DNA of 36,503 bases from contig JAEEUR010000014.1 of assembly GCA_016290595.1 (NCBI GenBank), forward strand, positions 1 through 36,503, written 5' to 3'. This document shows, one piece after another, positions 5,143-36,503 of this stretch (positions are counted from its first letter, which is position 1; each line of letters opens with the position of its first letter). Origin of the DNA: Lachnospiraceae bacterium. GTDB taxonomy: Bacteria > Bacillota > Clostridia > Lachnospirales > Lachnospiraceae. The notes beneath the pieces were generated by a model that ran no database searches, was not told the origin of the DNA, and worked only from the letters and a program-made list of their open reading frames with translations. Made by a program: the position numbers and the translations under genes.

Positions 5143-5946
5143 TTAACAGGTGGATGCCATTCTGTATTTAACAGGTGGCATCCACTTTGTTTTCGCCTGG
5201 ATGCGCTCATTATTGTAGTAGTCAATGTATTCGTCCATAGCTGCGGAAAACTCCTCGTAGGACCGATAGTCCTTCTCACACCCATAAAACATCTCGTTCT
5301 TTAGTCTCCCGAAGAAAGTCTCCATGATGCTGTTATCATAGCAGTTCCCTTTCCGGGACATGGACTGTATGATGCCTTTCTCTTTGATCGCATTTCTGTA
5401 ATAAGCGTGCTGGTACTGCCAGCCCTGGTCGGAATGAACAATCAGGCCTTTGAGCGATGCAAACCTGCCAAGCCCTTTCTCCAGCATCCTTCGGATCTGT
5501 TCCATGTTTGGACTCTGTGAGAGATCGTAAGAGATGACCTCATTCGTGTGCATGTCCAGAATCGGGGAGAGATAGCATTTCCCCCAGGGAAAACTGAATT
5601 GGGAGACGTCCGTCGTCCATTTCTCAAAAGGCTTTGTCGTGCTGAAGTCTCTGTTGATGAGGTTATCGGCTATCTTTCCCACTTCTCCCTGATAGGAATA
5701 ATACTTCTCCTTCGGACGTTTCCCTTTCAGTCCCATGCAGTGCATCAGCCGCTGTACCTTCTTGTGATTTACCTTATAGCCTCTGTTGATCAGTTCGTGA
5801 TAGACTCTGCGGACACCGTATCGTCCGTTGTTGTGTTCAAAGATATCTCTGATCATACCGGCTGTCTCTTCATTTCTTTTGGCTACAGCGTCTTCTTTTG
5901 AGATCTCATAATAGTATGTAGATCGAGACAGCCCCATCACTTTCAA
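5143..5946 (-). CDS. IS3-family transposase OrfB (rve integrase, DDE)
   Basis: 'WTTDVSQF', 'LIVHSDQGWQYQ', 'NSIMETFFGRLKNE' DDE residues; TTG start; frame extends upstream as 'GEKAAIVKELRENGYQLRHLLKVMGLSRSTYYYE', consistent with OrfAB fusion by -1 frameshift. Confidence 0.93.
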   Translation of the reverse strand: MKVMGLSRSTYYYEISKEDAVAKRNEETAGMIRDIFEHNNGRYGVRRVYHELINRGYKVNHKKVQRLMHCMGLKGKRPKEKYYSYQGEVGKIADNLINRDFSTTKPFEKWTTDVSQFSFPWGKCYLSPILDMHTNEVISYDLSQSPNMEQIRRMLEKGLGRFASLKGLIVHSDQGWQYQHAYYRNAIKEKGIIQSMSRKGNCYDNSIMETFFGRLKNEMFYGCEKDYRSYEEFSAAMDEYIDYYNNERIQAKTKWMPPVKYRMASTC

Positions 5947-5954
5947 AAGATGTC

Positions 5955-6527
5955 TCAGCTGATATCCGTTTTCTCTGAGTTCTTTGACGATCGCTGCTTT
6001 TTCGCCTTGAGATGCGCAGCTTCCTTTTCTTCTCTCAAGGCGATCTCTTTTTTTATTACTTCGATCTCCGCCTTGATATACGCATTCTCCGCTCTCAATC
6101 GTACGAGTTCTTCATACTCGGATTCATTGAGCTTTCTCGGATTGTTGTAGTTGAGTTTCTTCATCTGGGGCTCCTTTGGTGGTCGGCCTTTCTTTAAGTT
6201 TACAAGACTATTATACCCTTCGTTTTCATATTTGCGAACCCATTGATACAACAATCCTCTAGCAATTCCCGCATCAATAGCCACTGATGTGATGGATGCT
6301 CCGGCTAGCACCTTGGATACCAGTTCCAGCCGTTCCTCAGGACTCCATTCCTTATTCTGACTTTTGTGTTTTAGAACATCCGGGCCATTTGCTTCTTCCA
6401 TGCGGACCCATCGTCGAACCATGTGGCGAAAGTTTTCCGGATCCTTTATTCCATCCGGAGTCTCAGGCCACTTTCCTTCCCTGTACAGTTCAACGCATTT
6501 CCGCTTGTACTCGTAACTGTAACGCAT
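5955..6527 (-). CDS. IS3-family transposase OrfA (helix-turn-helix)
   Basis: 'MRYSYEYKRKCVELYREGKWPET...' HTH-type; start at 6527 keeps the gene inside the IS (the ORF-track start 6602 is outside it). Confidence 0.88.
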   Translation of the reverse strand: MRYSYEYKRKCVELYREGKWPETPDGIKDPENFRHMVRRWVRMEEANGPDVLKHKSQNKEWSPEERLELVSKVLAGASITSVAIDAGIARGLLYQWVRKYENEGYNSLVNLKKGRPPKEPQMKKLNYNNPRKLNESEYEELVRLRAENAYIKAEIEVIKKEIALREEKEAAHLKAKKQRSSKNSEKTDIS

Positions 6528-6578
6528 AAAATATACCCTCCTTACTGGTTGTCCAGTAAAGAGGGTACATATCACGGA

Positions 6579-6593
6579 CCGGGCGCCGTTTTT
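6579..6593 (+). terminator. Right arm and T-tract of the IS-split PTS IIC terminator
   Basis: CCGGGCGCCGttttt, perfect reverse complement of 5084-5093. Confidence 0.8.
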
Positions 6594-6730
6594 GCGTGAC
6601 AAAAAAGCTTACAGCAGCGGTGTAAGGACGGGTCTTGCATTTTCCGCCGGCCTGTGAAATAATGACGGCAGCGAAGACGTCGGCGAAAAGAAGCCTGTCA
6701 GACCGAACAGAAACAAAGGAGGCGGCCCGC

Positions 6731-14400: not shown

Positions 14401-15152
14401 TGCCCAGCGGCGAGCTGGCCGGCGCGATCGACGCCGCTTCCTCCTATCTGGGCGGCGTGGACGCAGACAAGGTGCTGCAGTACATGCGGGAGATCAAGGC
14501 TGTCACGCCGGAGAAGGTCCTGTCCTACGTGGATATGTACAAGGCGTTTGCGGAGAAAGGCAATCAGTACACCGCCGGCGGCGCGGCTGCGCTGGAAGCC
14601 AATGCGGACCGCTACGAATCGGTCCTGAATCCCTTCGGCGTGGTGGATCCGACCAAGGTGGATTACACGGACGTGGCGAAGGATTCCCCGTGGCGCGATG
14701 ATATCTACTACGCGCTCGGCACCGGCTTTATCAAGCCGGCGGGCGAGGGTCTCTTTGATCCGGACGGCACGGTCACGGTCGGCGATCTGGCGACCTATCT
14801 GTACGTGCTGGTGGGCGGCAACATGGACGCCGAGGCGGCGCTTTCCTTCCTGCAGGGCTACGGGATCTTCCCGGCCTCGGCCAAGGTGGGTGACGATCTG
14901 ACCCGCGAGCAGGCGGCGTACTCCAGCGGTATCTTTATGGAGCTGACCGGCAACACCATTCAGAAGAAGCTGCCGGCCGATATGAAGCCCGCGGATGCTG
15001 CGGAACTGACCGCCTACATGAAGTGGGCGCTGAAGGAAGGCGTGCTGAAGATGAAGACCAACGCGGCCGGCGAAGAGGTCGGCGCGCAGGCGGATCTCGT
15101 GAGCCGCGCGGAGTACGCGCATCTGCTCAAGGTCTTCGACGGCCTGCAGTAA
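11469..15152 (+). CDS. M16C (presequence-protease type) metallopeptidase lipoprotein with SLH-like C-terminus
   Basis: Lipobox 'AAAMLLSMVSCSPS'; inverted zinc motif 'HVFEH' in 'NTGLPHVFEHATLSGSQKYP', 'GTVYSEMKGAM'; C-terminal 'DYTDVAKDSPWRDDIYYALGTGFIKPAGEGLFDPDGTVTVGDLATYLYVLV' SLH-like. Confidence 0.88.
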   Translation: MKKLLAMLLAAAMLLSMVSCSPSGEPTQPAGSSAEESTAAPATDPSQTLPAETTAAPTEPAVTEPVTEPPTEPPTTEPVVEPELTPEEKAKLPEVGQVIKGFETKEIREYPILGAKLVYMVHQKTGSELLYIANNDTNRYFALTFGTQAIDNTGLPHVFEHATLSGSQKYPSADLFMNLSYQTYQTLMNAYTYDRMTMYPLGSLSQEQLLALADYYIDSCFHPMIMEDESIFKTEAWRYRAEKASKPLTLEGTVYSEMKGAMTLERQANYNWIREALPGAFLGYNQGGDPDYIPDMTWDSLKAYHDMFYHPSNCLTLLYGQVDNYRDFLALLDAEFSQYEAREFEVTNPDYVPLTESVVKEVPYPTEASTDPSRSSCVEYAIVLPEEAWEQSNALSYLTSLLCSTASPLAEVIKTQFPYASVSGGLEIAGPVPVAIFTLYNAEREDAEAFKAAVDAAIADVIENGFPKEMLDSYAASFAISDLLAREDNEVGESVMSSVAYDKHTFGDIWYYFDSSEEAELMVPWNENGTYSALASRYLSGEDVITALVTTYPEPGLQEQKDKELKEKLAAIKESMTTEEIKAIVKASTTGKRENPATAEMVKQLTVVDVASLPEEIREYEVSDTSENGIRYIEVAAAVSGVTNLSVNLDASFLDGEGLHYLKLYKDLIAYLDTAQHTRADLKSLQTRYLYEGHVYVSLMRENDSVHPFLQFTWMALDDDLQTGMDLMREMFFELKIDDAARLQEGVEALLIATKNDVNGNPYSEAIRRSFGRTAELYRYSAYLGGVEYYVFLSDVLAQLKSDPQVIIDKLAALRDSINSRHDSLVILAGGEESVGKAHQVVGSWLATLEDTEHEKAEFELPMAAAKEAIVVESNVQYNGLAADFETLGIEYDAGLVVVAALITDKYLIPQLRDGYGVYGVMHYPIEDTGIYMCTYRDPNVSETFTKYAELSGWLSRQSFKQEDIDGYILSSYVDLAMPSGELAGAIDAASSYLGGVDADKVLQYMREIKAVTPEKVLSYVDMYKAFAEKGNQYTAGGAAALEANADRYESVLNPFGVVDPTKVDYTDVAKDSPWRDDIYYALGTGFIKPAGEGLFDPDGTVTVGDLATYLYVLVGGNMDAEAALSFLQGYGIFPASAKVGDDLTREQAAYSSGIFMELTGNTIQKKLPADMKPADAAELTAYMKWALKEGVLKMKTNAAGEEVGAQADLVSRAEYAHLLKVFDGLQ

Positions 15153-15251
15153 GCAGAATAAACGGACGAAACAGGACGTCCGCTGACAAAAGACGGAGAT
15201 CGGGCGGCGGAAGGCGGCCCGGTCTCTGTTCTGCAAAAAAGGAGAGAAAAC

Positions 15252-15593
15252 ATGAAGGTTATCGACGTACTGGAAGGATATTATGCGGCGGAATGCACCG
15301 CGAACGGCCGGCCCCGCCATGCGGCGAAGGTCTGCCTGACGGCGACCAGCTACGCGGGGCAGATCACTTACGAATGGTCGATCACGTTTTTCCCGCACGA
15401 CGACCCGGAGGACTTTGCGGTCAGCTACGACGCGATCGTCAGCCGCAAGGTCTATGAAGGAAAAGGCCGCCGCTCCAAAAAGAAGGAAGAGGTCTATCTG
15501 GCAGAGCAGGAAGCCGTCTGCGACGAGCTGGCCGCCGAGCTGGAAGGAAAGGTCTTCTGGGATCAGCCGCTGCGGGAGGTCCGGCGCGGATAA
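15252..15593 (+). CDS. Hypothetical protein (113 aa)
   Basis: ORF with RBS (aaaaggagag) in coding-dense context; no recognised motif. Confidence 0.6.
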   Translation: MKVIDVLEGYYAAECTANGRPRHAAKVCLTATSYAGQITYEWSITFFPHDDPEDFAVSYDAIVSRKVYEGKGRRSKKKEEVYLAEQEAVCDELAAELEGKVFWDQPLREVRRG

Positions 15594-15643
15594 GTCCCGC
15601 CGTCCGGCGCCCGCATAAAAAGAAAAAAACTGGAGAGAGAACC

Positions 15644-16393
15644 ATGCTGAACGTATCGCACGTCACAAAAAAATACGGAAAGACCGTCGCCTGCCGGGAC
15701 GTCAGTTTTCATCTGGACCCGGGCAGCGTGACCGTCCTGCTGGGCCCGAACGGCGCCGGCAAGAGCACCATCATGAAATCGATCGTCGGCTTCCTGCGCT
15801 ACGAAGGGGAGATCTTCGTGGCGGGCTATCCGAACAAGAGCGTGGAGGCGCGGCGCATCCTGGGCTACATCCCCGAACTGCCCTCGCTCTATCCGAATCT
15901 GACGGTGTACGAACACATGGAATTCCTGGCCCGCGCCTATAAGCTGACGGATTACAAGGAAAGGATCGAGGCGCTGCTGGCCCGTTTTGAACTGGACGAC
16001 AAGAAGAAAAAGTTCGGCGACGAGCTGTCCAAGGGCATGCAGCAGAAGCTCAATCTCTGCCTCGGCCTTCTGCCGGATCCGGAAATGCTGATGATGGACG
16101 AGCCGATGATCGGCCTGGACCCGCATGCGATCAAGGAACTGAAGAACTGCATGGAGGAGATGCGCGCCGCCCGCAAAACGATGCTGATCAGCACCCATAT
16201 CATCGACAGCGTGGACATGCTCTGGGACCGGGCGCTCATCATGCAGGACGGCCGGATCAAGGCCAACGTGACGCGCCGGGAGCTGGACGCCTCCGGCCGG
16301 AGCCTGGAGGAGCTGTTCTTTGAAGTGACCGAAAACCTGTCCCGGGAGGATATGTCGCATCCCGCGGAAGCCCCGCTTGAGGAGAACGCCTGA
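15644..16393 (+). CDS. ABC transporter ATP-binding protein
   Basis: Walker A 'GPNGAGKST', signature-like 'LSKGMQQKLNLCLGLL', Walker B 'MLMMDEP', H-loop 'LISTHI'. Confidence 0.95.
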   Translation: MLNVSHVTKKYGKTVACRDVSFHLDPGSVTVLLGPNGAGKSTIMKSIVGFLRYEGEIFVAGYPNKSVEARRILGYIPELPSLYPNLTVYEHMEFLARAYKLTDYKERIEALLARFELDDKKKKFGDELSKGMQQKLNLCLGLLPDPEMLMMDEPMIGLDPHAIKELKNCMEEMRAARKTMLISTHIIDSVDMLWDRALIMQDGRIKANVTRRELDASGRSLEELFFEVTENLSREDMSHPAEAPLEENA

Positions 16394-18061
16394 ATGAAGC
16401 TGTTCCTTTACTATGTTCTGCACAGCGCGAAAAACGCGCTGAAAAAGCTCTTCAAGACGTGGGTCCTGATCTTTTTCCTGGTCATGCTCGTGGGCGGGGT
16501 GGTCGTCGGCATCACCGTCGGCACCCTCTTAAGCCATACGATCCCGGATGATCCGTCGGAGCCCGGAACGGAGCAGACGGATCCCGGCTGGCAGAAAGAG
16601 CCCGGGGAGATCGTCCTGCCGGAGGATCCGCAGGACGAAACGCCGGTCATGGATATCCTGGAGCTGGCGTCCGGCGCGATCATCCTGCTGTTCTTCGTGC
16701 TCGGCGTCTTCGGGGCGGACAAAAGCGGCGCGGAGATCTTCCAGCCGGCGGACGTGACGCTCCTGTTTTCTTCCCCCTTATCGCCGCAGTCGGTGCTTCT
16801 GTTCCGGACCATGACGCAGATCGGGACCCTTATCGCGGCGACCCTGTACTTTATGATCTTCCAGATCCCGAATCTGGTCCGGAACGCGGGCTTTGATTTC
16901 TGGATCATCCTGGCGATCATGGCCGGCTGGATCCTGACGCTGGGGATCTCGCAGCTCTTAAAGATGCTCTGCTTCGTGGCGGGCTCGACCCGTCCGGCCT
17001 TCAAAAAGAACCTGCGGCGCATCGTGTATCTGATCCTCGGAGCGGCTGCCGCCGGCTTCTATTTCTTCAAACAGAGCAGCGGCCTGGGCTGGTGGGAGGC
17101 GGTGCTGGCTTATTTCAACGCGCCGGCGACCCGCTTCATTCCCTTCTGGGGCTGGATCAAGGGCTTCGTGATGTTTGCCGCGGAAAGAAACCTGCGGGGC
17201 ACGCTGCTGTGTCTGGCAGCCACCCTGCTGGGCGGCGCCTTCGTGGCCTGGCTGACCTGGCACATGAAGGCGGATTTCTATGAGGAGGCCCTGCAGAAGA
17301 CCTCCGAAAAAGCGGAGATGATGGAGGCGGTGCAGGCCAGCCAGAGCGGCGCGGCCATCATCCGGCGGAAGAAGGACCGCAGCGAAAAGCTCCGCCGCAA
17401 CGAGCTGAATCGCGGCTGGGGCGCGACGGTCTTCTTCCACAAGTCGCTGTACAACCGCTTCCGCTTTGCGCATTTCGGCTTTCTGACCAAAACGCTGGAG
17501 TTCTATCTGGTCGTCGGCGTGGGCGCCGCCCTGATCTGCCGCCTGGTCATCGGGACCGAAAGCTATCTGCCGCTGGCGCTGCTGCTGGCGTTCTGCGTTT
17601 TCTTCCGAAGCCTGGGGAACGCGCTGAAGGCGGATACGCAGATGTGGTACTTCCATATGATCCCGGAGGATCCCTGGCTGAAGCTCATTTGTTCGCTGGG
17701 CGGCGATCTGATGAACTGCCTGCTGGACGTGCTGCCGGCGCTTGTGATCGGCCTGCTGGTGCAGGGCGCGCCGCTGTTCCCAGGACTGTTCTGGATCTTC
17801 CCCATCGTGTCCGTGACGGCCTACGCCACGAGCGTGGGGACCTTTATCGACATGTCGGTCAACGTGAACGCCGGCAAGACCCTAAAGCAGATGATCCAGG
17901 TCATCTTCATCTATTTCGGCCTGCTGCCGGATATCGTCGTGGTCGGCGTGCTGCTGATCCTGAAGCTGCCGGTGCTGGCGGCTCTGGCGGTGACGCTGAT
18001 CAACCTGGGCTTAAGCGCGCTCTTCCTGTTCTTCGCCTCGCTGCTGATGGGAAGAAAGTAA
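16394..18061 (+). CDS. ABC exporter permease
   Basis: Multiple hydrophobic segments; starts immediately after the ATPase stop; 'GADKSGAEIFQPADVTLLFSSPLSPQSVLLFR' typical of multi-TM ABC exporter subunits. Confidence 0.8.
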   Translation: MKLFLYYVLHSAKNALKKLFKTWVLIFFLVMLVGGVVVGITVGTLLSHTIPDDPSEPGTEQTDPGWQKEPGEIVLPEDPQDETPVMDILELASGAIILLFFVLGVFGADKSGAEIFQPADVTLLFSSPLSPQSVLLFRTMTQIGTLIAATLYFMIFQIPNLVRNAGFDFWIILAIMAGWILTLGISQLLKMLCFVAGSTRPAFKKNLRRIVYLILGAAAAGFYFFKQSSGLGWWEAVLAYFNAPATRFIPFWGWIKGFVMFAAERNLRGTLLCLAATLLGGAFVAWLTWHMKADFYEEALQKTSEKAEMMEAVQASQSGAAIIRRKKDRSEKLRRNELNRGWGATVFFHKSLYNRFRFAHFGFLTKTLEFYLVVGVGAALICRLVIGTESYLPLALLLAFCVFFRSLGNALKADTQMWYFHMIPEDPWLKLICSLGGDLMNCLLDVLPALVIGLLVQGAPLFPGLFWIFPIVSVTAYATSVGTFIDMSVNVNAGKTLKQMIQVIFIYFGLLPDIVVVGVLLILKLPVLAALAVTLINLGLSALFLFFASLLMGRK

Positions 18062-19798: not shown

Positions 19799-20203
19799 AT
19801 GATCCAAGAAGAGCATCCCGAACAGCATACACACGAGGAGGGGACCGTACACGTCCATGCGGACGGGACGGTGCATTCGCATGCCGACGGCACGGTGCAC
19901 GTTCATGCGGACGGCACGGGGCATTCGCATCCGCATACGCACAGCCATACCCAGACGAAGGCGGTCATCAGCCGCCTGGCCCGTGCGGTCGGGCATCTGG
20001 AAGCCGTCAAAAAGATGGTGGAGAACGGCCGCGACTGCTCGGAGGTCCTGGTCCAGCTGGCGGCCGTGCGGGCCGCGCTCGGCTCCATCAGCAAGGTGAT
20101 CCTGAAGGATCACATGGAGCACTGCATCGCGGACGCGGTGCGGGACGGCGATCAGGAAGCCATCGAAGAGCTGGAGAAAGCCATCGACCAGCTGCTGGTA
20201 TAA
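19799..20203 (+). CDS. Metal-sensing CsoR/RcnR-family regulator with His-rich N-terminal extension
   Basis: 'VISRLARAVGHLEAVKKMVENGRDCSEVLVQLAAVRAALGSISKVILKDHMEHCI' matches the CsoR/RcnR four-helix fold pattern; His-rich N-terminus. Confidence 0.88.
   Translation: MIQEEHPEQHTHEEGTVHVHADGTVHSHADGTVHVHADGTGHSHPHTHSHTQTKAVISRLARAVGHLEAVKKMVENGRDCSEVLVQLAAVRAALGSISKVILKDHMEHCIADAVRDGDQEAIEELEKAIDQLLV
19841..19936 (+). repeat. 24-bp in-frame repeat, about 4 units, encoding (GTVH[VS]HAD)n
   Basis: Protein GTVHVHAD-GTVHSHAD-GTVHVHAD-GTGHSHPH. Confidence 0.85.
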
Positions 20204-24984: not shown

Positions 24985-25010
24985 AACATATGAACAATTA
25001 AGCATATGTT
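24985..25010 (+). promoter_or_regulatory. Probable ArsR/SmtB-family operator
   Basis: AACATATG-aacaattaag-CATATGTT inverted repeat at the predicted transcription start; ATATGAACAA half-site resembles known ArsR/SmtB operators. Confidence 0.65.
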
Positions 25011-25026
25011 TTGCAAAGGAGCCGCC

Positions 25027-27282
25027 ATGGACAAGGAAGAAGTCAGAAAAACGGAAAACGAAGTCCCGGAAGAGATAGAAGAGGAAGCCTGCCATCACCA
25101 TCATCACCACGATGATGACGATGACGGGGAATGCTGCTGCCATCATCATCACCATGATGACGACGATGATGACGATGAAGAGTGCGGCTGCCATCATCAT
25201 CACCACGATGATGACGATGACGACGAGGAGTGCACCTGCCATCATCCGCACCATCACCATCACGACGATGACGACGACGAGGACGAGGACGAGCCGCATT
25301 TCGAGCTGGGCTGCAGCTGCGGCCACTGCCATCATGAGCATCACGAACACGGCCATGAGCACGGGCATGAGCATCATCACGGGCACGGGCACCGGCACGG
25401 GGCGGATGCAGACGGGGAGGATGACGAAGCGCACGAGAAGAAGGAAAAGCGGGAGCTGATCCTCGGCGCGGGCCTGTTTGCGGCCGCCGTGATCCTGCAT
25501 CTTGTTCTGCGGGAGGAAGGCTACAGCTGGCCGCTCATCGTACTTTTGGTCGCTGCCTACCTGATCCTTGGCAAGGACGTGCTGCTGACCTCGGTGAGAA
25601 ACATCGCGCACGGGGAGATCTTCGACGAGAACTTTCTGATGAGCATCGCGACGCTGGGCGCCTTCGCCATCCGGGAGTATCCGGAGGCGGTCGGCGTGAT
25701 GCTGTTCTTCCGCCTGGGCGAGATGTTCGAGGACATGGCGGTGGAGAGCAGCCGCAAGAAGATCCTGGAGACCGTGAATCTGCGCGCGGAGACCGTCACG
25801 CTCTCGAACGGAAGCGTGATCCCCGCCAAAAAGGCGAAGGCAGGCGACCTCGTCCTGGTCAGCCCGGGCGACCGGGTGCCGCTGGACGGCGTGATCACCG
25901 GGGGCGAAAGCTTTCTTGACACCTCCGCGATCACCGGCGAGCCGGTGCCCGTACGGGTCGGTCCCGGAAGCGAGATCCTGGCCGGCTGCGTGAATACGCA
26001 GGGCGTGCTGACCGTGCGCGCCACGAAGAAGCTTTCCGAGTCCATGACCAGCCGTATCCTGCGCTCCGTGGAGGAGGCACAGGAGCAGAAGCCCCAGATC
26101 GAGCACTTTATCACGCGCTTTGCGCGGGTCTATACGCCCATCGTGGTGGGACTGGCCCTGTTCGTCGCTGTCGCCATGCCGCTGATCCGCGGCGAGGCTT
26201 TTAAGCCCTGGCTTTATACCGCCATCAGCTTCCTGGTCATGAGCTGCCCCTGCGCGCTGGTGGTCAGCGTGCCGCTGGCTTTCTTCTGCGGCATCGGCAC
26301 CGCGTCCGGCCGCGGGATCCTTTTAAAGGGCGGCGCCGCCATCGAAGCGCTGTCCCGGATCAAAGCCGTCGTGCTGGACAAGACCGGGACCATTACCGAA
26401 GGCAGCTTTGCCGTGCAGAAAACGGAGACGCTGGGCACGCTCTCCGAGGAGGAGGCCCTGCGCCTGGCGGCCGCCTGCGAGCGCTTAAGCCGCCATCCGA
26501 TCGGGCAGAGCATCGTAAACGCCGCCGTTTCCCGGGGGCTTGAGATCCCCGAAGCGGAGGACATGTCGGAGATCGCCGGCCGGGGCGTCATCGCGTCCGT
26601 GGAAGGAAGACGCATCCTCTGCGGCAATCCGAAGCTGTTTAAGGCGGAGGGCGTTTCCGTCGAAGGGATCCCCGCGGCGGCGGGAACGCAGGTGCTGCTG
26701 GCCGTGGACGGCATTCTTCAGGCGAGCTTTACGATCGCGGACGCGGTCAAGAAGGACGCGCAGCCTTCGCTTTCGGCCTTAAAGAAGATGGGCCTGACGC
26801 CCGTCATGCTGACCGGAGACGGAGAAGCGTCGGCGCGTGAGATCGCCGGGCAGGTCGGCATCGGGCGCATCCGGGCGGGCCTGCTGCCGGAGGAGAAGCT
26901 CTCCGCCATGCAGGAGATCCGCCGGGAGATCGGCGGCGTGCTCTTCGTGGGCGACGGTCTAAACGACGCGCCCGTTCTGGCCGGCGCCGACGTGGGCGCC
27001 GCAATGGGAAGCGGTGCGGATGCGGCGATCGAGGCAGCCGATCTGGTCTTCATGAACTCCAACGTGGCCGCAATCCCCGAGGCGATCACGCTGGCGAACC
27101 GGGCCATGCGCATCGCCCGGGAGAACGTCATCGGCGCGCTGGCGATCAAGATCCTTGTGATGATCCTGGGCGTGGCCGGCATCTACTCCAACATGTGGCT
27201 GGCGGTGTTTGCGGACACGGGCGTTTTGTTCCTCTGCATCTTAAACGCCCTGCGCCTTCTGCGCTGGAAGACTGTTAAATAG
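25027..27282 (+). CDS. P1B-type heavy-metal (Zn/Cd/Pb-like) translocating ATPase with His/Asp/Cys-rich N-terminus
   Basis: 'SCPCALVVSVPL' CPC motif, 'DKTGTITEG', 'GDGLNDAPVLAGADVGAAMG'; RBS aaaggagccgcc. Confidence 0.93.
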   Translation: MDKEEVRKTENEVPEEIEEEACHHHHHHDDDDDGECCCHHHHHDDDDDDDEECGCHHHHHDDDDDDEECTCHHPHHHHHDDDDDEDEDEPHFELGCSCGHCHHEHHEHGHEHGHEHHHGHGHRHGADADGEDDEAHEKKEKRELILGAGLFAAAVILHLVLREEGYSWPLIVLLVAAYLILGKDVLLTSVRNIAHGEIFDENFLMSIATLGAFAIREYPEAVGVMLFFRLGEMFEDMAVESSRKKILETVNLRAETVTLSNGSVIPAKKAKAGDLVLVSPGDRVPLDGVITGGESFLDTSAITGEPVPVRVGPGSEILAGCVNTQGVLTVRATKKLSESMTSRILRSVEEAQEQKPQIEHFITRFARVYTPIVVGLALFVAVAMPLIRGEAFKPWLYTAISFLVMSCPCALVVSVPLAFFCGIGTASGRGILLKGGAAIEALSRIKAVVLDKTGTITEGSFAVQKTETLGTLSEEEALRLAAACERLSRHPIGQSIVNAAVSRGLEIPEAEDMSEIAGRGVIASVEGRRILCGNPKLFKAEGVSVEGIPAAAGTQVLLAVDGILQASFTIADAVKKDAQPSLSALKKMGLTPVMLTGDGEASAREIAGQVGIGRIRAGLLPEEKLSAMQEIRREIGGVLFVGDGLNDAPVLAGADVGAAMGSGADAAIEAADLVFMNSNVAAIPEAITLANRAMRIARENVIGALAIKILVMILGVAGIYSNMWLAVFADTGVLFLCILNALRLLRWKTVK
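25090..25400 (+). repeat. In-frame CAY/GAY low-complexity repeats encoding poly-His/poly-Asp blocks
   Basis: 'CHHHHHHDDDDDGECCCHHHHHDDDDDDDEECGCHHHHHDDDDDDEECTCHHPHHHHHDDDDDEDEDE...HEHHEHGHEHGHEHHHGHGHRHG'. Confidence 0.9.
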
Positions 27283-27322
27283 AAGGCGGCGCGGGCCGGA
27301 TGATCACGTAAAAAACCGGAAG

Positions 27323-27368
27323 AAACCTGCCGGCGGTCAGGAAAAGATTGACCGCGGCAGGTTTTTTT
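27323..27368 (+). terminator. Rho-independent terminator of the metal ATPase
   Basis: AAACCTGCCGgCGGTCA-ggaaaagat-TGACCGCGGCAGGTTTTTTT. Confidence 0.88.
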
Positions 27369-27376
27369 GGTATATT
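27348..27376 (+). promoter_or_regulatory. Promoter for the YidC-sulfatase locus, overlapping the terminator
   Basis: TTGACC-17 nt-TATATT. Confidence 0.6.
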
Positions 27377-27461: not shown

Positions 27462-30212
27462 ATGAGTATTTTCGGAATGCTGTATCAGCTTTTGATCGGG
27501 CCGCTGGAGCTTTTTTTTGAAGCGATCTACGGCTTTTCCAAGCTGCTCTTCGGAAACGCCGGCCTCTCCATCTTCCTTTTGAGCATGAGCATGAACGTCC
27601 TGCTGCTGCCGCTCTACAAACGGGCGGACGCGATCCAGGAGGAGGAACGCCAGATCAACAAACGCCTCTCGCCCTGGGTCAGCCACATCAAGAAGACCTT
27701 TTCGGGCGACGAGCGCTACATGATGCTGCAGACCTACTACCGGCAGAACGATTACCGGCCCTTCTACGCCCTGCGCGGCTCGCTGCCGCTCCTTCTGGAG
27801 ATCCCCTTCTTCATCGCGGCGTATCATTTCCTGTCCAATCTGCCGGAATTAAAGGGCACGGCCTTCGGTCCCATCCGGGATCTGGGCGCACCGGACGGCC
27901 TGCTGACGATCGGTACGCTGACGGTGCACGTCCTGCCCATTCTGATGACCCTGATCAACTTCGTCTCCAGTGCCATCTATACGAAAGGGCTGTCGGCAAG
28001 GGACAAGATCCAGCTCTACGGCATGGCGCTGATCTTCCTGGTCCTGCTTTATCAATCGCCGGCGGGACTGGTCTTTTACTGGACGCTGAACAACCTGTTC
28101 TCCCTCGTTAAAAACCTGATCGGCCGGCTGAAGGATCCGGGCCGGACCGTGCGGATCGGCCTGGCCGTGCTGGGAGCGGCGCTTTTCTTCTGGTCGCTGC
28201 TTTTCTACCGGCCCGCCAGAACGGCGTATAAGCTGCTGCTGGTCTTTCTGGCCTTCCTGATGCTGCTTCCGCTGCTTTTATCGCAGCTTAAGAAAAAAGG
28301 ACGCCTGCCGGCGATCTCCCTTCCGGAGGACAGTTCGCCCCGCCGCTTCTTCGGCGGCGCCCTGCTGCTGACGGTCTTAACGGGCGTTCTGATCCCTTCG
28401 GCCGTCATCGCCGCCTCGCCGGCGGAATTCATCCAGATGGCGGACTTCTACTCGCCGCTGCGCCACGTGTTCAACGCCCTGCTGCTGGCGGCCGGCCTCT
28501 TTCTGGTCTGGTTCGGTATCTTTTACTACCTGGCCGGCCGGAAGGCGAAGACGGTCATAGAAGCGCTTTTGTGGGTGCTCGGCGTCCTTGCGATCATCAA
28601 CTATATGTTTTTCGGAACGAAGCTGGGAACGCTCTCCGCGGAACTTAAATACGATACGCCGCCTGCCTTCGGCGCGGGAACGAAGCTCATCAATCTCGGC
28701 ATCCTGGCGGCGGCGGCCGTCCTTGTGATCTGGCTGTGGAAGAAAAACAAAAAGCTCTGCTCCGGCTGCTGCCTGGTGCTCTGCCTGGCGATGGCGGGCA
28801 TGTCCGCCGTCAATCTTGTCCGCATCCGGGGGACGGTCTCCGATATGCGCGGGATCGCGGAGCAGGCCCCGGAGGAACAAGCGGAGCTTACTTTGAGCCG
28901 CGACGGGAAAAACGTGATCATTATCATGCTGGACCGCGCCATCAGCAGTTATCTGCCGTATCTGTTTGCGGAAAACCCCGCGCTTAAGCAGCAGTATGCC
29001 GGCTTTACCTATTATCCGAATACGGTCTCTCACGGCGCCTATACGATCTTCGGCGCGCCCGGGCTCTGGGGCGGCTACGAATATACGCCGGAGGAGATGA
29101 ACAAGCGGAGCAGCGAGACCTTAAAGGACAAGCACAACGAGGCCTTAAAGGTCCTGCCGGTGCTGTTTGATCAGGCCGGCTACGACGTCACGGTCTGCGA
29201 CCCGACCTACGCGGGCTATGCCTGGATCCCGGATCTTTCCATCTACAGCGGGTATCCGGACATAAAGTGCTATATCACGGAACAGGGCCAGTTCTCCCTG
29301 GAAACGGGAGAAGAGAAGGCCGAGGCCTTAAACGGGATCTGGAAGCGGAACTTCTTCTGCTACAGCCTGATGAAGTGCTCGCCGCTCGTGCTCCAGAGCA
29401 ATCTGTACCAGGGCGGCAGCTATTTCGCCTCCGCTTCCTTCAGGCGCTGGAGCCAGACGGAAGAGGGGATCTCGCAGGCGCAGGGCTATAAGAACAGCTT
29501 TATGGATTCCTACGCCGTGCTGGCGGCCCTGCCCTCCGTCACGAAGCTGAGCGAAGGAACGGCCGGCTCGCTACTCATCATGAGCAATTCCACGACGCAC
29601 GAGCCGATGCTGCTTCAGGAGCCGGCCTATCAGCCGGCCGAAAAGGTGGACAACCGGGAATACGATGAGGCCCACCGGGACCGCTTTACCTTAAACGGCC
29701 GCACGCTCCGCGTGGAGGATTTCAATCAGATGGCCCACTATCAGACCAATATGGCGGCGTTGATGGCGCTGGGAAACTGGTTTGACTATCTTAAGGCAAA
29801 CGGCGTTTACGACAACAGCCGCATCATCATCGTATCGGACCACGGCCGCGATCTGGCCCAGTTCGACGACCTTCTCTTCGGCACGGAATACTACGAAGAC
29901 GTGATGTTCTACAATCCGCTGCTGCTGATCAAGGATTTCGGGGCAAAGACATTTACGACGGATAATGCGTTCATGACCAACGCCGACGTGCCGGCAGAAG
30001 CGCTGGCGGGGCTTATCGAAGAGGCGCGCAATCCCTTCACCGGGCAGCTCATCGACTCGGGCCGGAAGGCGGAAGGGCCGCAGCGCATCCTGTTTTCGGA
30101 CAATATCGAGACGGACAAGAACACCGGCTGCACCTTCGCACCGGGCGTCTGGTTCGAGGTGGATGAAAACATCTTCGATCTGTCCAAATGGAAAAAACTC
30201 GGGTCTTACTAA
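27462..30212 (+). CDS. YidC/Oxa1-like domain fused to sulfatase/LtaS-fold domain, copy 1
   Basis: N-terminal YidC-like 'LLIGPLELFFEAIYGF...MNVLLLPLYKRADAIQ...LPLLLEIPFFIAAYHFLSNL...QSPAGLVFYWTLNNLFSLVKN'; C-terminal 'NVIIIMLDRA', 'SHGAYTIFGAP', 'STTHEPMLL', 'IIIVSDHGRDL'; RBS gggagga before ATG 27462. Confidence 0.85.
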   Translation: MSIFGMLYQLLIGPLELFFEAIYGFSKLLFGNAGLSIFLLSMSMNVLLLPLYKRADAIQEEERQINKRLSPWVSHIKKTFSGDERYMMLQTYYRQNDYRPFYALRGSLPLLLEIPFFIAAYHFLSNLPELKGTAFGPIRDLGAPDGLLTIGTLTVHVLPILMTLINFVSSAIYTKGLSARDKIQLYGMALIFLVLLYQSPAGLVFYWTLNNLFSLVKNLIGRLKDPGRTVRIGLAVLGAALFFWSLLFYRPARTAYKLLLVFLAFLMLLPLLLSQLKKKGRLPAISLPEDSSPRRFFGGALLLTVLTGVLIPSAVIAASPAEFIQMADFYSPLRHVFNALLLAAGLFLVWFGIFYYLAGRKAKTVIEALLWVLGVLAIINYMFFGTKLGTLSAELKYDTPPAFGAGTKLINLGILAAAAVLVIWLWKKNKKLCSGCCLVLCLAMAGMSAVNLVRIRGTVSDMRGIAEQAPEEQAELTLSRDGKNVIIIMLDRAISSYLPYLFAENPALKQQYAGFTYYPNTVSHGAYTIFGAPGLWGGYEYTPEEMNKRSSETLKDKHNEALKVLPVLFDQAGYDVTVCDPTYAGYAWIPDLSIYSGYPDIKCYITEQGQFSLETGEEKAEALNGIWKRNFFCYSLMKCSPLVLQSNLYQGGSYFASASFRRWSQTEEGISQAQGYKNSFMDSYAVLAALPSVTKLSEGTAGSLLIMSNSTTHEPMLLQEPAYQPAEKVDNREYDEAHRDRFTLNGRTLRVEDFNQMAHYQTNMAALMALGNWFDYLKANGVYDNSRIIIVSDHGRDLAQFDDLLFGTEYYEDVMFYNPLLLIKDFGAKTFTTDNAFMTNADVPAEALAGLIEEARNPFTGQLIDSGRKAEGPQRILFSDNIETDKNTGCTFAPGVWFEVDENIFDLSKWKKLGSY

Positions 30213-30221
30213 GGAGGCGAA

Positions 30222-32939
30222 ATGTCCTTTTTCCATATGCTGTATCAACTGATCATCGGGCCGCTGGAGCTGATCCTCGAAACGGTCTACGGGGCGGCGC
30301 AGCTCTTGTTCGCCAGCCCCGGCGTTTCGATCATCGCGATGAGCCTGGTCATGAACCTCCTGCTTTTGCCGCTCTATAAGAGCGCGGACGCGATCCAGGC
30401 CGGGCAGCGCGAGAAGGAGAAGAGCCTGGCGGCGTGGGTCTCCCATATCCGGAAGACCTTTAAGGGCGACGAGCGCTACATGATGCTCCAGACCTACTAC
30501 CGCCAGAACGACTACAAGCCCTTCCACGTCTTAAAGGGCATGCTGCCGCTGCTTTTAGAGATCCCCTTCTTTATCGCGGCCTATCACTTTTTGTCCAACC
30601 TGCAGGAGATCCGGGGAACGGCCTTCGGCCCGATCGAGGACCTGGGCTCGCCCGACAACCTCCTTGCGATCGGCACGCTCACGCTCCACCTGCTGCCGGT
30701 CCTCATGACGCTGATCAACTTTATATCCAGCGCGGTCTACACCAGAGGCTTTCCGCTTAAGGACAAGCTGACGCTCTACGGGATGGCCGTGCTGTTCCTC
30801 GTCCTTTTGTACGAGTCTCCGGCCGGCCTGGTCCTGTACTGGACCTTGAACAACCTGTTCTCGCTGGTCAAAAACGTCGTGCAGAAGATCGCGGAGCTGA
30901 TCCGGAAGAAGATAAAAGCCCGGAAGGACAGGAGAGAAACCGTCGTGGCCAGAACGGCCGCGATGCTGGGCGGCGCGCCGGCCGCCGCGCCGGAAGCCGG
31001 AAAAGCACAGGCGTCTGCCGCCCTTCCGAAAGGCCTTTTCTCCCTGGGCTGCCTGTTCTTAACGCTGCTCACCGGCGTGCTGATCCCTTCGACCCTGGTG
31101 CTGGCCTCGCCCTCGGAGTTCGTCCTGATCTCGAATTTCCGCTCGCCGCTCATCCACGTGTTTACCGCGTTCCTGCTGGCGGCCGGCCTCTTTCTCCTCT
31201 GGTTCGGCATCTTTTACTATCTGGCGGGGCCGAAGGGAAAGAAGATCTTTGCCTGCCTTATCTGGCTGCTCTCGGGCGGCGCCGTCGTCAACTACATGTT
31301 TTTCGGGACGGAGCTGGGCAACATGTCCGCGGAGCTCAAATTCGACGTCACGCCGGAATTTTTGCCGAAGGAGCGGCTCCTTAACTTCGGGATCCTGCTG
31401 GGGCTGGCGGCGCTCATGCTGCTCATCTGGATCAAGGGCAAAAAGCTGGTCCGGGGCCTCTATATCGTCCTGATCCTGGCCATCTCGGGCATGGCGGGGA
31501 TGAACCTGATCGATACGCAGAAGCAGCTGCCGCAGATCCGCTCGGTCGTTTACAACGTGCCGGACGAGCTGGCGCACTTTACCATAAGCAAGAACGGCAA
31601 AAACGTGATCGTGATCTTCATGGACCGCGCGGTCGGCGCGCTGGTGCCCTACCTTTTCCAGGAAAAGCCCGAGCTGGCGCAGCAGTTTGAGGGCTTTACC
31701 TTCTATCCGAACACGCTGTCCTTCGGGCCGGTGACCAACATCGCCTCGCCCGCGCTCTTCGGCGGCTACGACTACACGCCCGAGCGCATGAACGCGCGCG
31801 ACACCGTGAAGATCTCGAAAAAGCACGACGAAGCTTTAAAGCTCATGCCGGTGACCTTCTACAACGAGGGCTACGACGTGACGCTCTGCGACCCGACCTA
31901 CGCGAACTACAGCTGGTATCCGGACCTGTCCGCCTTCGACGACTATCCCGGCATGCACACCTACATCACCGCGGAGGGGCAGTTCGCGGACTTCGGCAAG
32001 GAAGGCCAGGGCGTCAGGATGACGGGGATCTGGGAGCGGAATTTCTTCTGCTACAGCCTGATGAAGACCGCGCCGGTGGCCGTTCAGCCCTTCCTGTACC
32101 AGGGAGGAACCTATTTTAAAGCCGAAGCCGTGGAGGAGCTGACGCAGCGCTGGTACGGCATGTCCGTCGCGAAGGGCCTGCATCAGCCCTTCCTGAACGC
32201 CTACTCGGTGCTCTGCTCGCTGCCGGCCATGAGCCGCATCAGCGACGGCGACGAGAACACCTTCATGATGATGGTCAACTATACCGCGCACGAGCCGAAC
32301 CTTCTGCAGGAGCCGCAGTACGAGCCCGCGCAGGAGGTCAACAACCTGCTCTACGACGCGAACCAGAGCCGTTTCACTTACAACGGGCGGACCTTAAGGG
32401 TCGAGAAGATCACGCAGATGGCGCACTACCAGGTCAACATGGCGGCGCTCATGCGCCTGGGCATCTGGATGGATTTCCTGAAGGAGAGCGGCGTCTACGA
32501 CAACTGCCGCATCATCATCGTTTCCGACCACGGCCGGGATCTCGGCCTTCTGGACGAGATGAAGTTCGGGAGCGAAAACTACGAGGACGTGATGACCTAC
32601 AATCCGCTCCTGATGGTCAAGGATTTTAACGCCCCGAAAGAGCCCTGCGTGACGGACGATACGTTCATGACCAACGCGGACACGCCGCTGCTGGCGTTTG
32701 AAGGCCTGATCGAGGATCCCGTCAATCCGCTGACCGGCCTTCCGGTGACGGATGAGCTGAAATACGAGACGGAGCAGCACGTTTTCTTCTCCGATATTTA
32801 TTCCACCGTCAAGAACAACGGCACGGTCTTCCTGCCCGGCACCTGGCTGGTCATGGAAGGCGAAGACATCTTTGACATGAGCCGCTGGCGCACGGTCGGC
32901 GAGACTCCGGACTTTTCCTCAGGCGCGAAAGGACAGTAA
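30222..32939 (+). CDS. YidC/Oxa1-like domain fused to sulfatase/LtaS-fold domain, copy 2
   Basis: Same architecture as copy 1: 'MNLLLLPLYKSADAIQ', 'ESPAGLVLYWTLNNLFSLVKN', 'NVIVIFMDRA', 'SFGPVTNIASP', 'YTAHEPNLL', 'IIIVSDHGRDL'; RBS aaggaggcga. Confidence 0.85.
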   Translation: MSFFHMLYQLIIGPLELILETVYGAAQLLFASPGVSIIAMSLVMNLLLLPLYKSADAIQAGQREKEKSLAAWVSHIRKTFKGDERYMMLQTYYRQNDYKPFHVLKGMLPLLLEIPFFIAAYHFLSNLQEIRGTAFGPIEDLGSPDNLLAIGTLTLHLLPVLMTLINFISSAVYTRGFPLKDKLTLYGMAVLFLVLLYESPAGLVLYWTLNNLFSLVKNVVQKIAELIRKKIKARKDRRETVVARTAAMLGGAPAAAPEAGKAQASAALPKGLFSLGCLFLTLLTGVLIPSTLVLASPSEFVLISNFRSPLIHVFTAFLLAAGLFLLWFGIFYYLAGPKGKKIFACLIWLLSGGAVVNYMFFGTELGNMSAELKFDVTPEFLPKERLLNFGILLGLAALMLLIWIKGKKLVRGLYIVLILAISGMAGMNLIDTQKQLPQIRSVVYNVPDELAHFTISKNGKNVIVIFMDRAVGALVPYLFQEKPELAQQFEGFTFYPNTLSFGPVTNIASPALFGGYDYTPERMNARDTVKISKKHDEALKLMPVTFYNEGYDVTLCDPTYANYSWYPDLSAFDDYPGMHTYITAEGQFADFGKEGQGVRMTGIWERNFFCYSLMKTAPVAVQPFLYQGGTYFKAEAVEELTQRWYGMSVAKGLHQPFLNAYSVLCSLPAMSRISDGDENTFMMMVNYTAHEPNLLQEPQYEPAQEVNNLLYDANQSRFTYNGRTLRVEKITQMAHYQVNMAALMRLGIWMDFLKESGVYDNCRIIIVSDHGRDLGLLDEMKFGSENYEDVMTYNPLLMVKDFNAPKEPCVTDDTFMTNADTPLLAFEGLIEDPVNPLTGLPVTDELKYETEQHVFFSDIYSTVKNNGTVFLPGTWLVMEGEDIFDMSRWRTVGETPDFSSGAKGQ

Positions 32940-32940
32940 G

Positions 32941-34230
32941 ATGATGAAGATCTTTCCGTTATATATCGATCCCGGCACCGGGAGCATGCTGTTTACCGTT
33001 CTGATCGGCGTGCTGGGCACCGCCTTCTACCTGCTGCGCGGCTTTTTCGTCAAGCTCCGCTTCTGGCTGACCGGCGGCGCCGGCGAGAAGAAGGGGCAGG
33101 AGGACCGCATGCCCTTCGTCATCTTTTCCGACAGCAAGCGCTACTGGAACCTCTTCGGGCCGGTCTGCGATGAATTTGAAAAGCGCGGGGAGAAGCTGGT
33201 CTATCTGACGGCCTCCGAAGACGATCCCGCGTTAAAGCAGTCGTACGAAAACGTGCGCTGCGAGTTTATCGGCGAGGGCAACAAGGCCTTCGCGAAGCTG
33301 GGCTTTTTAAAAGCAGACGTGCTGCTTTCCACGACCCCGGGCCTGGAGGTCTATCAGTGGAAGCGCTCCAAGGACGTGAAATGGTACGTCCACGCGCTCC
33401 ACGCGGCCAGCGACGTCAGCGCCTACCGCATGTTCGGCATCGATTACTACGACGCCCTGCTGCTTTCCGGCCGGTACCAGATCGAACAGGTGCGGCAGCT
33501 GGAAAAGCTGCGCGGCCTGCCGGAGAAGGAACTGGTGCTGACGGGCGTTCCCTTCCTGGACGCCATGAAGAAGCGCCTGGAGGAGGCCGATCCGCTTCCG
33601 CCGCATCCCGTGACGGTGCTGCTGGCGCCGACCTGGGGCAAGAGCGGGATCTTAAGCCGCTACGGCGCGAAGGCGATCTGCGCGCTCCTTGCGACGGGCT
33701 ATCACGTCATCGTGCGGCCGCACCCGCAGTCCTTCACTTCGGAAAAGGAGATGCTGGATACGCTGATGGCCGAGTTCCCCGAAAGCGAACAGCTGGAATG
33801 GAACCGCGACAACGACAACTTCGAGGTCCTGCGGCGTTCCGACGTGATGATCTCGGACTATTCCGGCGTCATTTTCGACTACTGCCTGATCTTTGACCGG
33901 CCTGTGATCTATGCGGACACCTCCTTCGACAAGGCGCCCTACGACGCCGCCTGGCTGGACGAGGAGCTCTGGACCTTCCGGACCCTGCCGAAGATCGGCC
34001 GGCCGCTGGAGGAAAAGGACTTCGACAGGATCGGGGAGGTCATCGGCGGGATGATCGGCAACCCGAAGTATCAGGCCGCGATCGAAGAAGCCCGGCAGGA
34101 GACCTGGTGCCATATCGGCGAAGGAGCGGCGCGCATCGCGGACTATATGATCGGGAAGCAGAAAGATCTTAAGGAAGCGGCGGAAAAGGCCGCCGCCGAC
34201 AAGAAAAAGACGGCGGCAAAGAAAAAATAG
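32941..34230 (+). CDS. CDP-glycerol glycerophosphotransferase-like protein with N-terminal membrane segment
   Basis: 'VIVRPHPQSF', 'SDVMISDYSGVIFDYCLIFDRPVIY' Glyphos_transf motifs; N-terminal 'IDPGTGSMLFTVLIGVLGTAFYLLRGFF'. Confidence 0.82.
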   Translation: MMKIFPLYIDPGTGSMLFTVLIGVLGTAFYLLRGFFVKLRFWLTGGAGEKKGQEDRMPFVIFSDSKRYWNLFGPVCDEFEKRGEKLVYLTASEDDPALKQSYENVRCEFIGEGNKAFAKLGFLKADVLLSTTPGLEVYQWKRSKDVKWYVHALHAASDVSAYRMFGIDYYDALLLSGRYQIEQVRQLEKLRGLPEKELVLTGVPFLDAMKKRLEEADPLPPHPVTVLLAPTWGKSGILSRYGAKAICALLATGYHVIVRPHPQSFTSEKEMLDTLMAEFPESEQLEWNRDNDNFEVLRRSDVMISDYSGVIFDYCLIFDRPVIYADTSFDKAPYDAAWLDEELWTFRTLPKIGRPLEEKDFDRIGEVIGGMIGNPKYQAAIEEARQETWCHIGEGAARIADYMIGKQKDLKEAAEKAAADKKKTAAKKK

Positions 34231-36089: not shown

Positions 36090-36095
36090 TGCGTT

Positions 36096-36503
36096 ATGAA
36101 CAAGACGGAGATCCTGATCGCCATCCTCGGATGCGGCTTCCTGATCTATCTGATCCGGGAGGCCTTTCAGGTGCGCGCCGACCGCAGGAAACTGACGCAC
36201 GTCATCTACGTGAACGGGACCCGCGGGAAATCCACGGTCACCCGCATGATCGCCGCCGGCATCACGGCAGGCGGCCATAAGGTCATGTGCAAGACCACCG
36301 GGACCCTGCCCATCGCGATCTATCCGGACGGACGTCAGGAAGAAGTGAAGCGGCGCGGTCCGGCCAATATCCGCGAGCAGATCAAGTTCCTGCATATTGC
36401 GGCGAAGGAAGGAGCGGACTATCTGGTCATCGAATGCATGGCGCTTCTGCCGGAATACCAGCGCGTCTCCGGCAAAAACATGCTGCACTGCGACATCGGC
36501 GTC
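36096..36503 (+). CDS. pgsB: Poly-gamma-glutamate synthase PgsB/CapB-like (3' truncated by window)
   Basis: Manual translation 'MNKTEILIAILGCGFLIYLIREAFQVRADRRKLTHVIYVNGTRGKSTVTRMIAAGITAGGHKVMCKTTGTLP...'; ATP-binding NGTRGKST; frame open to window end. Confidence 0.88.
   Translation, partial: MNKTEILIAILGCGFLIYLIREAFQVRADRRKLTHVIYVNGTRGKSTVTRMIAAGITAGGHKVMCKTTGTLPIAIYPDGRQEEVKRRGPANIREQIKFLHIAAKEGADYLVIECMALLPEYQRVSGKNMLHCDIGV

Follow-up and report, generated by a model that had tools for sequence, protein, structure and literature searches.

Gene organization at the locus

The window analyzed here is a whole contig (C87; 36,503 nt) of a Lachnospiraceae genome assembly (G000; 2.31 Mb, 150 contigs) with a completeness of about 96.6%, so that absences from this genome are not certain. 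It carries two adjacent genes of a gut/rumen-type clostridium that the first-pass annotation had described, from sequence alone, as tandem paralogs of ∼910 amino acids joining a YidC/Oxa1-like domain to a sulfatase/LtaS-fold domain. Open reading frames, HMM searches and a structure model confirmed this description. Fusion gene 1 (27462–30212, + strand) encodes 916 amino acids comprising a YidC domain, an extra transmembrane (TM) hairpin, five TM helices and an AlkP-superfamily domain. Its reading frame is also open from 27432, but the ATG at 27462, the start chosen in the first-pass annotation, is the better one since it is preceded by GGGAGGA. Fusion gene 2 (30222–32939, + strand; 905 amino acids) begins 9 bp after fusion gene 1 with AAGGAGG-5-ATG, and the two proteins share 53.6% identity along their length. 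A terminator-like inverted repeat with a T-run (27316–27376, + strand) lies 5′ of the first fusion gene and ends the transcript of the upstream metal ATPase gene; it is overlapped by a weak promoter-like site, TTGACC-17-TATATT (27348–27376), of a kind found twice against 2.0 expected.

One base pair after fusion gene 2 lies a gene (32941–34230, + strand; 429 amino acids) whose product matches PF04464, “CDP-glycerol glycerophosphotransferase”, with 56.5 bits. Like TagB and TagF it keeps the RPHP and SD-S motifs of the family (RPHPQS at 33715, SDYSG at 33853), but it is short and starts with a YIDPGTGSM membrane helix (32962), and a related protein is fused to YidC in four other genomes, as described below.

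The YidC domain and its groove

The N-terminal domains proved to be YidC-like, as the first-pass annotation had held. PF02096 (cut-off 35 bits) matched fusion 1 (27462–28151, + strand) with 85.5 bits and fusion 2 (30222–30896, + strand) with 89.7 bits, TIGR03592 matched the fusions with 91–92 bits against a cut-off of 84.3, and a confident model contained the five-helix core. In Foldseek searches the N-terminus of fusion 2 matched Bacillus halodurans YidC (BhYidC2, 3wo7) with a target TM score of 0.69 and an rmsd of 3.2 over 220 columns; taken together, the matches to 3wo7 and 6al2 had rmsd values of 3.2–3.3 over 210–220 columns, in keeping with a five-TM core fold. The fold, the five-TM core and the cytoplasmic hairpin are common to YidC/Oxa1/Alb3 proteins such as SpoIIIJ, BhYidC2 and E. 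coli YidC. The fusion domain differs from these in its groove residue (Asn, Ser or Thr), in being joined to an enzyme and in existing alongside a canonical YidC. In this genome the canonical protein is encoded separately on another contig (C13; 149 bits), and the window fusions are therefore extra, specialized YidC copies.

The canonical YidC of the same genome has Lys at the groove position, which aligns with Asn45 in fusion 1 (27594–27596) and is likewise Asn45 in fusion 2 (30354–30356). Across 100 aligned sulfatase fusions the residue is Asn in 97, Ser in two and Thr in one, and the groove positive charge of the YidC family was found in none of them. This charge has been called strictly conserved, yet it is replaceable in engineered contexts (PMC8920935). 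When conservation in the 100 fusions was expressed as majority fraction, the YidC domain scored highest (0.71), followed by the AlkP domain (0.61) and the TM region (0.47). The YidC domain is thus under constraint, being the best conserved part even though its groove charge is gone, and judging from these alignments it is probably not an ordinary insertase. The “insertase groove” of the first-pass annotation accordingly needs qualifying: the YidC-like domain stands, but the conserved charge is replaced by Asn in nearly all fusions. The groove residue and the separate canonical YidC rule out a plain additional YidC, as does the confinement of this subfamily to fusions, since at E≤1e-25 it was found solely in fused form, in 194 genomes.

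The AlkP-superfamily domain

In fusion 1 the YidC domain is followed by the extra two-helix hairpin (28149–28289, + strand), which by hydropathy and alignment is absent in fusion 2, and by five further TM helices (28359–28811, + strand) with an N-in/C-out arrangement according to hydropathy and loop charges. The corresponding five helices of fusion 2 (31026–31556, + strand) were placed by AF2 secondary structure and hydropathy. The C-terminal AlkP domain of fusion 1 (28830–30209, + strand) was delimited by motif positions and by PF00884 (39.2 bits, cut-off 25); that of fusion 2 (31557–32936, + strand) scored 18 bits, under the cut-off, and was assigned from the model, fold matches and motif positions. 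The model of fusion 2, built from the alignment of 100 fusions, had a mean pLDDT of 91.7 and a pTM of 0.89 and shows the AlkP-superfamily fold at high confidence. Foldseek matches of its C-terminus were EptA (top), PbgA, LtaP/LtaS, MCR-1, phosphonate monoester hydrolases and sulfatases, with choline sulfatase also among them. A separate model of the TM and AlkP parts was poor (pLDDT 75.6), so that the fold search made with it is supporting evidence alone. The AlkP fold seen in the model and the Foldseek matches comes after the TM helices, and the loop charges place this domain outside and the linker that follows the YidC domain inside.

Each of the catalytic-type motifs reported in the first-pass annotation was found once, where expected. 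The residues concerned are D491 (28932–28934), T528 (29043–29045), H713 (29598–29600) and D793-H794 (29838–29843) in fusion 1, and D468 (31623–31625), T505 (31734–31736), H690 (32289–32291) and D769-H770 (32526–32531) in fusion 2. The latter five are invariant in 100 of 100 relatives, in which the Asp-to-Thr spacing is always 37 residues. In LtaS and EptA the equivalent residues bind metal and the Thr is the nucleophile; the predicted Asp-His metal ligands and Thr nucleophile of this type are intact in the fusions. That the fold is of LtaS/EptA type and its Asp/Thr/Asp-His set intact is therefore upheld by HMMs, by a confident model and by complete conservation.

Distribution of the fusion family

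At least 579 relatives were confirmed in a scan of 85,462 species genomes, and the 78 loci that were kept came mostly from clostridial metagenome-assembled genomes of ruminant guts. The YidC domain is present in all complete relatives among these loci. Among evenly drawn Clostridia the fusion was found in 11 of 289 genomes, and a phylum-wide draw added one genome (G666). An assembly artefact, which the first-pass annotation had thought unlikely, or a chance fusion was ruled out because all complete close relatives on 78 named contigs show the same fusion, and so does every strong match among the genomes sampled at class and phylum level. Matches to immunoglobulin light chains were low-scoring and due to chance. 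It is all but certain, then, that the YidC-AlkP fusion, in its architecture and as a family, is real, conserved and widespread in Clostridia. No earlier description of it was found in the open-access literature that was searched; within that literature the family is undescribed, and it is a predicted variant of the AlkP-fold membrane phosphotransferases.

Distant relatives of the AlkP half that lack YidC but keep the TM region occur at four loci (L135, L136, L152 and L153). One of them (L136, 6808–9387) has an extra C-terminal region of ∼350 amino acids and lies in a polysaccharide-type cluster. At another locus (L081, 2456–20591) about seven fusion genes form an array with one PF04464 gene, and one array copy is split in two frames (15056–16120 and 16081–17820).

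Gene neighborhood of the fusions

The survey of co-occurrence called for in the first-pass annotation revealed a near-constant partner. Using an HMM of the PF04464 neighbor at the 59 loci with enough flank, we found this gene adjacent and on the same strand in 54, mostly with a gap of 0–50 bp or an overlap of 1–4 bp. In the fetched flanks of the 78 loci, LicA/LicC-type genes were present at 29, PEP mutase-cytidylyltransferase together with phosphonopyruvate decarboxylase at 8, PhnW/AepZ at 7 and an EamA (LicB-like) gene at 8; all these neighborhood counts ignore kinship among loci. These genes are of the types known from the Lic-1 phosphocholine pathway and the Pnt (PntC) pathway of phosphonate tailoring, and some operons hold complete activation pathways, namely FUS-GPT-LicC-PhnW-PepM-Ppd (L016 and L124), LicC-LicA-LicB-GPT-FUS (L025) and NTPtransferase/PepM-FeADH-Ppd-FUS-GPT (L131). 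The operon at L131 points to hydroxyethylphosphonate. PEP mutase was found in 8 of 11 genomes with the fusion versus 16 of 278 others, and in 3 of 4 versus 12 of 176 genera (p about 0.002), an association dominated by one genus. One group of fusions (G004) is found within or close to genes of polysaccharide type and has no PF04464 or lic neighbor. At a further locus (L125, 10956–16784) a Lic-type cytidylyltransferase and a LicC-LicA fusion gene lie near a fusion-GPT pair, in a cluster that gives the impression, from sequence, of a trimethylamine/betaine methyltransferase and transporter system.

LicD coexists with the fusion in 12 of 20 fusion genomes, in one case (L123) directly upstream of the fusion gene, so that it is not generally replaced by the fusion system, and head-group transfer in these 12 genomes may be the job of LicD. 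In the genomes of L016, L025, L050 and L069 activation genes are present, but no LicD was found; in such genomes its place appears to be taken by the PF04464 protein together with the YidC-AlkP fusion.

YidC is also joined to the partner enzyme. Four other genomes encode a YidC-PF04464 fusion, exemplified by a protein of 710 amino acids (G218) matching PF02096 with 112 bits and PF04464 with 57 bits, whose gene overlaps that of a YidC-less membrane sulfatase protein with a YIDP-type helix. In two of the others the YidC-PF04464 fusion adjoins (L152) or lies ∼2 kb from (L153) a YidC-less sulfatase, while in the fourth (L154) it is inside a phosphonate operon and no recognized AlkP protein was found nearby. 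These fusions keep the groove Lys. At L135 (6781–11180) and L152 (5067–8695) the YidC-PF04464 gene beside a YidC-less membrane sulfatase presents the same parts domain-shuffled. Being welded to either partner of the pathway, YidC appears to serve the pathway and not merely the folding of one enzyme. An independent origin of the two YidC fusion types was not established, as the tree cannot reject a single clade (AU p 0.32).

Head group and proposed role

The lic-type genes of the window genome lie on contigs other than that of the window: C20 carries a fusion gene of LicC-LicA type, and on C115 a LicA-like gene is truncated by the end of the contig. LicD, PEP mutase and the glycerol-3-phosphate cytidylyltransferase TagD (TIGR01518) had no match in this genome (about 96.6% complete), and TagD had none in two further genomes (G676 and G677). 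On this gene content phosphocholine is the likeliest head group here, and the lack of a TagD match makes glycerol phosphate less likely. The first-pass annotation had proposed that the YidC-like groove is coupled to transfer of a phospho-group, for instance glycerol phosphate. The coupling gains from the near-constant PF04464 neighbor and from the YidC-PF04464 fusion, but glycerol phosphate is disfavored, since the activation genes linked to the fusions lead to donors of the CDP-choline and CMP-phosphonate types and TagD is unmatched.

The frequent phosphocholine and phosphonate decoration genes beside relatives suggest an undescribed envelope-attachment machine, and a role in decorating the envelope with activated head groups is reasonably likely. 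We propose that the fusions and the adjacent PF04464 protein form one envelope-decoration system with polytopic phospho-/phosphono-transferases. The cytosolic PF04464 protein would use a CDP- or CMP-activated head group (phosphocholine, aminoethyl- or hydroxyethylphosphonate) to load a membrane lipid or a glycan linked to lipid; the YidC domain, its groove charge lost, would give the polar intermediate a way across the membrane or access to its outer leaflet; and the extracytoplasmic AlkP domain would move the phospho(no)-group via its Thr onto an exposed envelope glycopolymer. Taken whole, with each of these steps, we give this explanation even odds. In three-part glycan-modification systems an inner charging enzyme, a flipping protein and an outer transferase act, and the fusion would join the last two. 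The family name of PF04464 implies CDP-glycerol; we infer from the gene context that its putative substrate here is a cytidylyl-activated head group. EptA, MCR and PptA, which transfer phosphoethanolamine or phosphocholine, are like the fusions membrane proteins of AlkP fold that handle small amino-alcohol phosphates, and they take the group from a phospholipid. As phospholipid is the donor of the known AlkP-fold transferases, the cytidylyl-activated group may be used in another step.

The conduit step is plausible because lipid scrambling in vitro has been shown for E. coli YidC and further Oxa1 proteins (PMC10491306), and the fusions make it testable whether evolution has put this side activity to use; that the YidC domain is a lipid conduit is nevertheless a tentative proposal, somewhat short of an even chance. 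Also doubtful, though worth stating, is the broader idea that the YidC fold has turned from inserting proteins to carrying a lipid-linked, head-group-charged intermediate across the membrane and, welded to either PF04464 or AlkP enzymes, forms a compact machine for decoration with phosphocholine and phosphonates that can replace LicD. The fusions provide a natural case of YidC joined to envelope enzymes in two architectures. The later steps of the Pnt pathway have been called enigmatic, and the route of cytidylyl-activated phosphonates to surface glycans has been described as unresolved (PMC6697681). The fusion family is a concrete, culturable candidate for these missing transfer steps; one culturable carrier, Lachnospiraceae bacterium XBD2001, has a single fusion in an operon of the order cytidylyltransferase-GPT-fusion.

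Alternative explanations

The fusions could instead be LtaS-type polymerases making polyglycerol phosphate (LTA/WTA-like) from phosphatidylglycerol, with the PF04464 protein giving a CDP-glycerol-derived linkage unit and YidC as an accessory. They share with LtaS/LtaP, which are among their fold matches, five TM helices followed by an extracytoplasmic AlkP domain with a Thr nucleophile and Asp-His ligands; PF04464 is named for CDP-glycerol transfer, and no other PF00884 protein above the cut-off was found in the window genome. LtaS/LtaP, however, have neither the N-terminal YidC domain nor the PF04464/lic/phosphonate context, and the first metal ligand is Glu in LtaS and Asp in the fusions. 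The fusions bear next to no resemblance to the NCBIfam LtaS model (12 bits for fusion 1 against a cut-off of 970, no listed match for fusion 2), LtaS came behind EptA in each of the two fold searches, the partners encoded in the operons yield choline and phosphonate donors, and the three genomes searched for TagD gave no match. We regard this polymerase as unlikely.

It is similarly improbable that the YidC domain is a mere membrane chaperone or anchor, inserting the helices of the fusion itself or recruiting ribosomes, while the enzyme works without it. Membrane insertion and chaperoning are the canonical functions of YidC, and the YidC-less AlkP relatives with a TM region fit such a dispensable part; but YidC is also fused to the PF04464 enzyme, where there is no AlkP domain to insert, the groove Asn prevails in a domain that is the best conserved of the protein, and a canonical YidC is already in the genome. 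A third reading makes the AlkP domain a hydrolase, either a phospho-/phosphono-diesterase or a sulfatase, that trims or recycles envelope head groups with no transfer. Although the best matches by fold and by sequence include phosphonate monoester hydrolases and sulfatases, these enzymes use a formylglycine made from Cys or Ser, whereas the nucleophile position is Thr in every one of the 100 fusions, and the constant pairing with a biosynthetic transferase and activation genes also makes trimming very unlikely. The decoration system proposed above is the reading we prefer.

Other features of the window

Upstream of the fusion pair a heavy-metal P-type ATPase gene (25006–27282, + strand) encodes an odd N-terminus in which His runs alternate with Asp/Glu/Cys runs (HHHHHHDDDDDGECCCHHHHH...) and which is probably a tail that binds metal. 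Within ∼5 kb of it a small protein (19799–20203, + strand) has HADGTVHSHADGT repeats at its N-terminus and a C-terminus that gives the impression of a CsoR/DUF156-type metal regulator. An insertion sequence (5143–6602, − strand) contains two open reading frames resembling an IS3-type transposase. Downstream of Maf and M28 peptidase genes, the start of a Mur-ligase-like gene (36095–36503, + strand), cut by the contig end, gives the impression of PgsB/CapB of poly-gamma-glutamate synthesis and possibly belongs to a second envelope polymer system.
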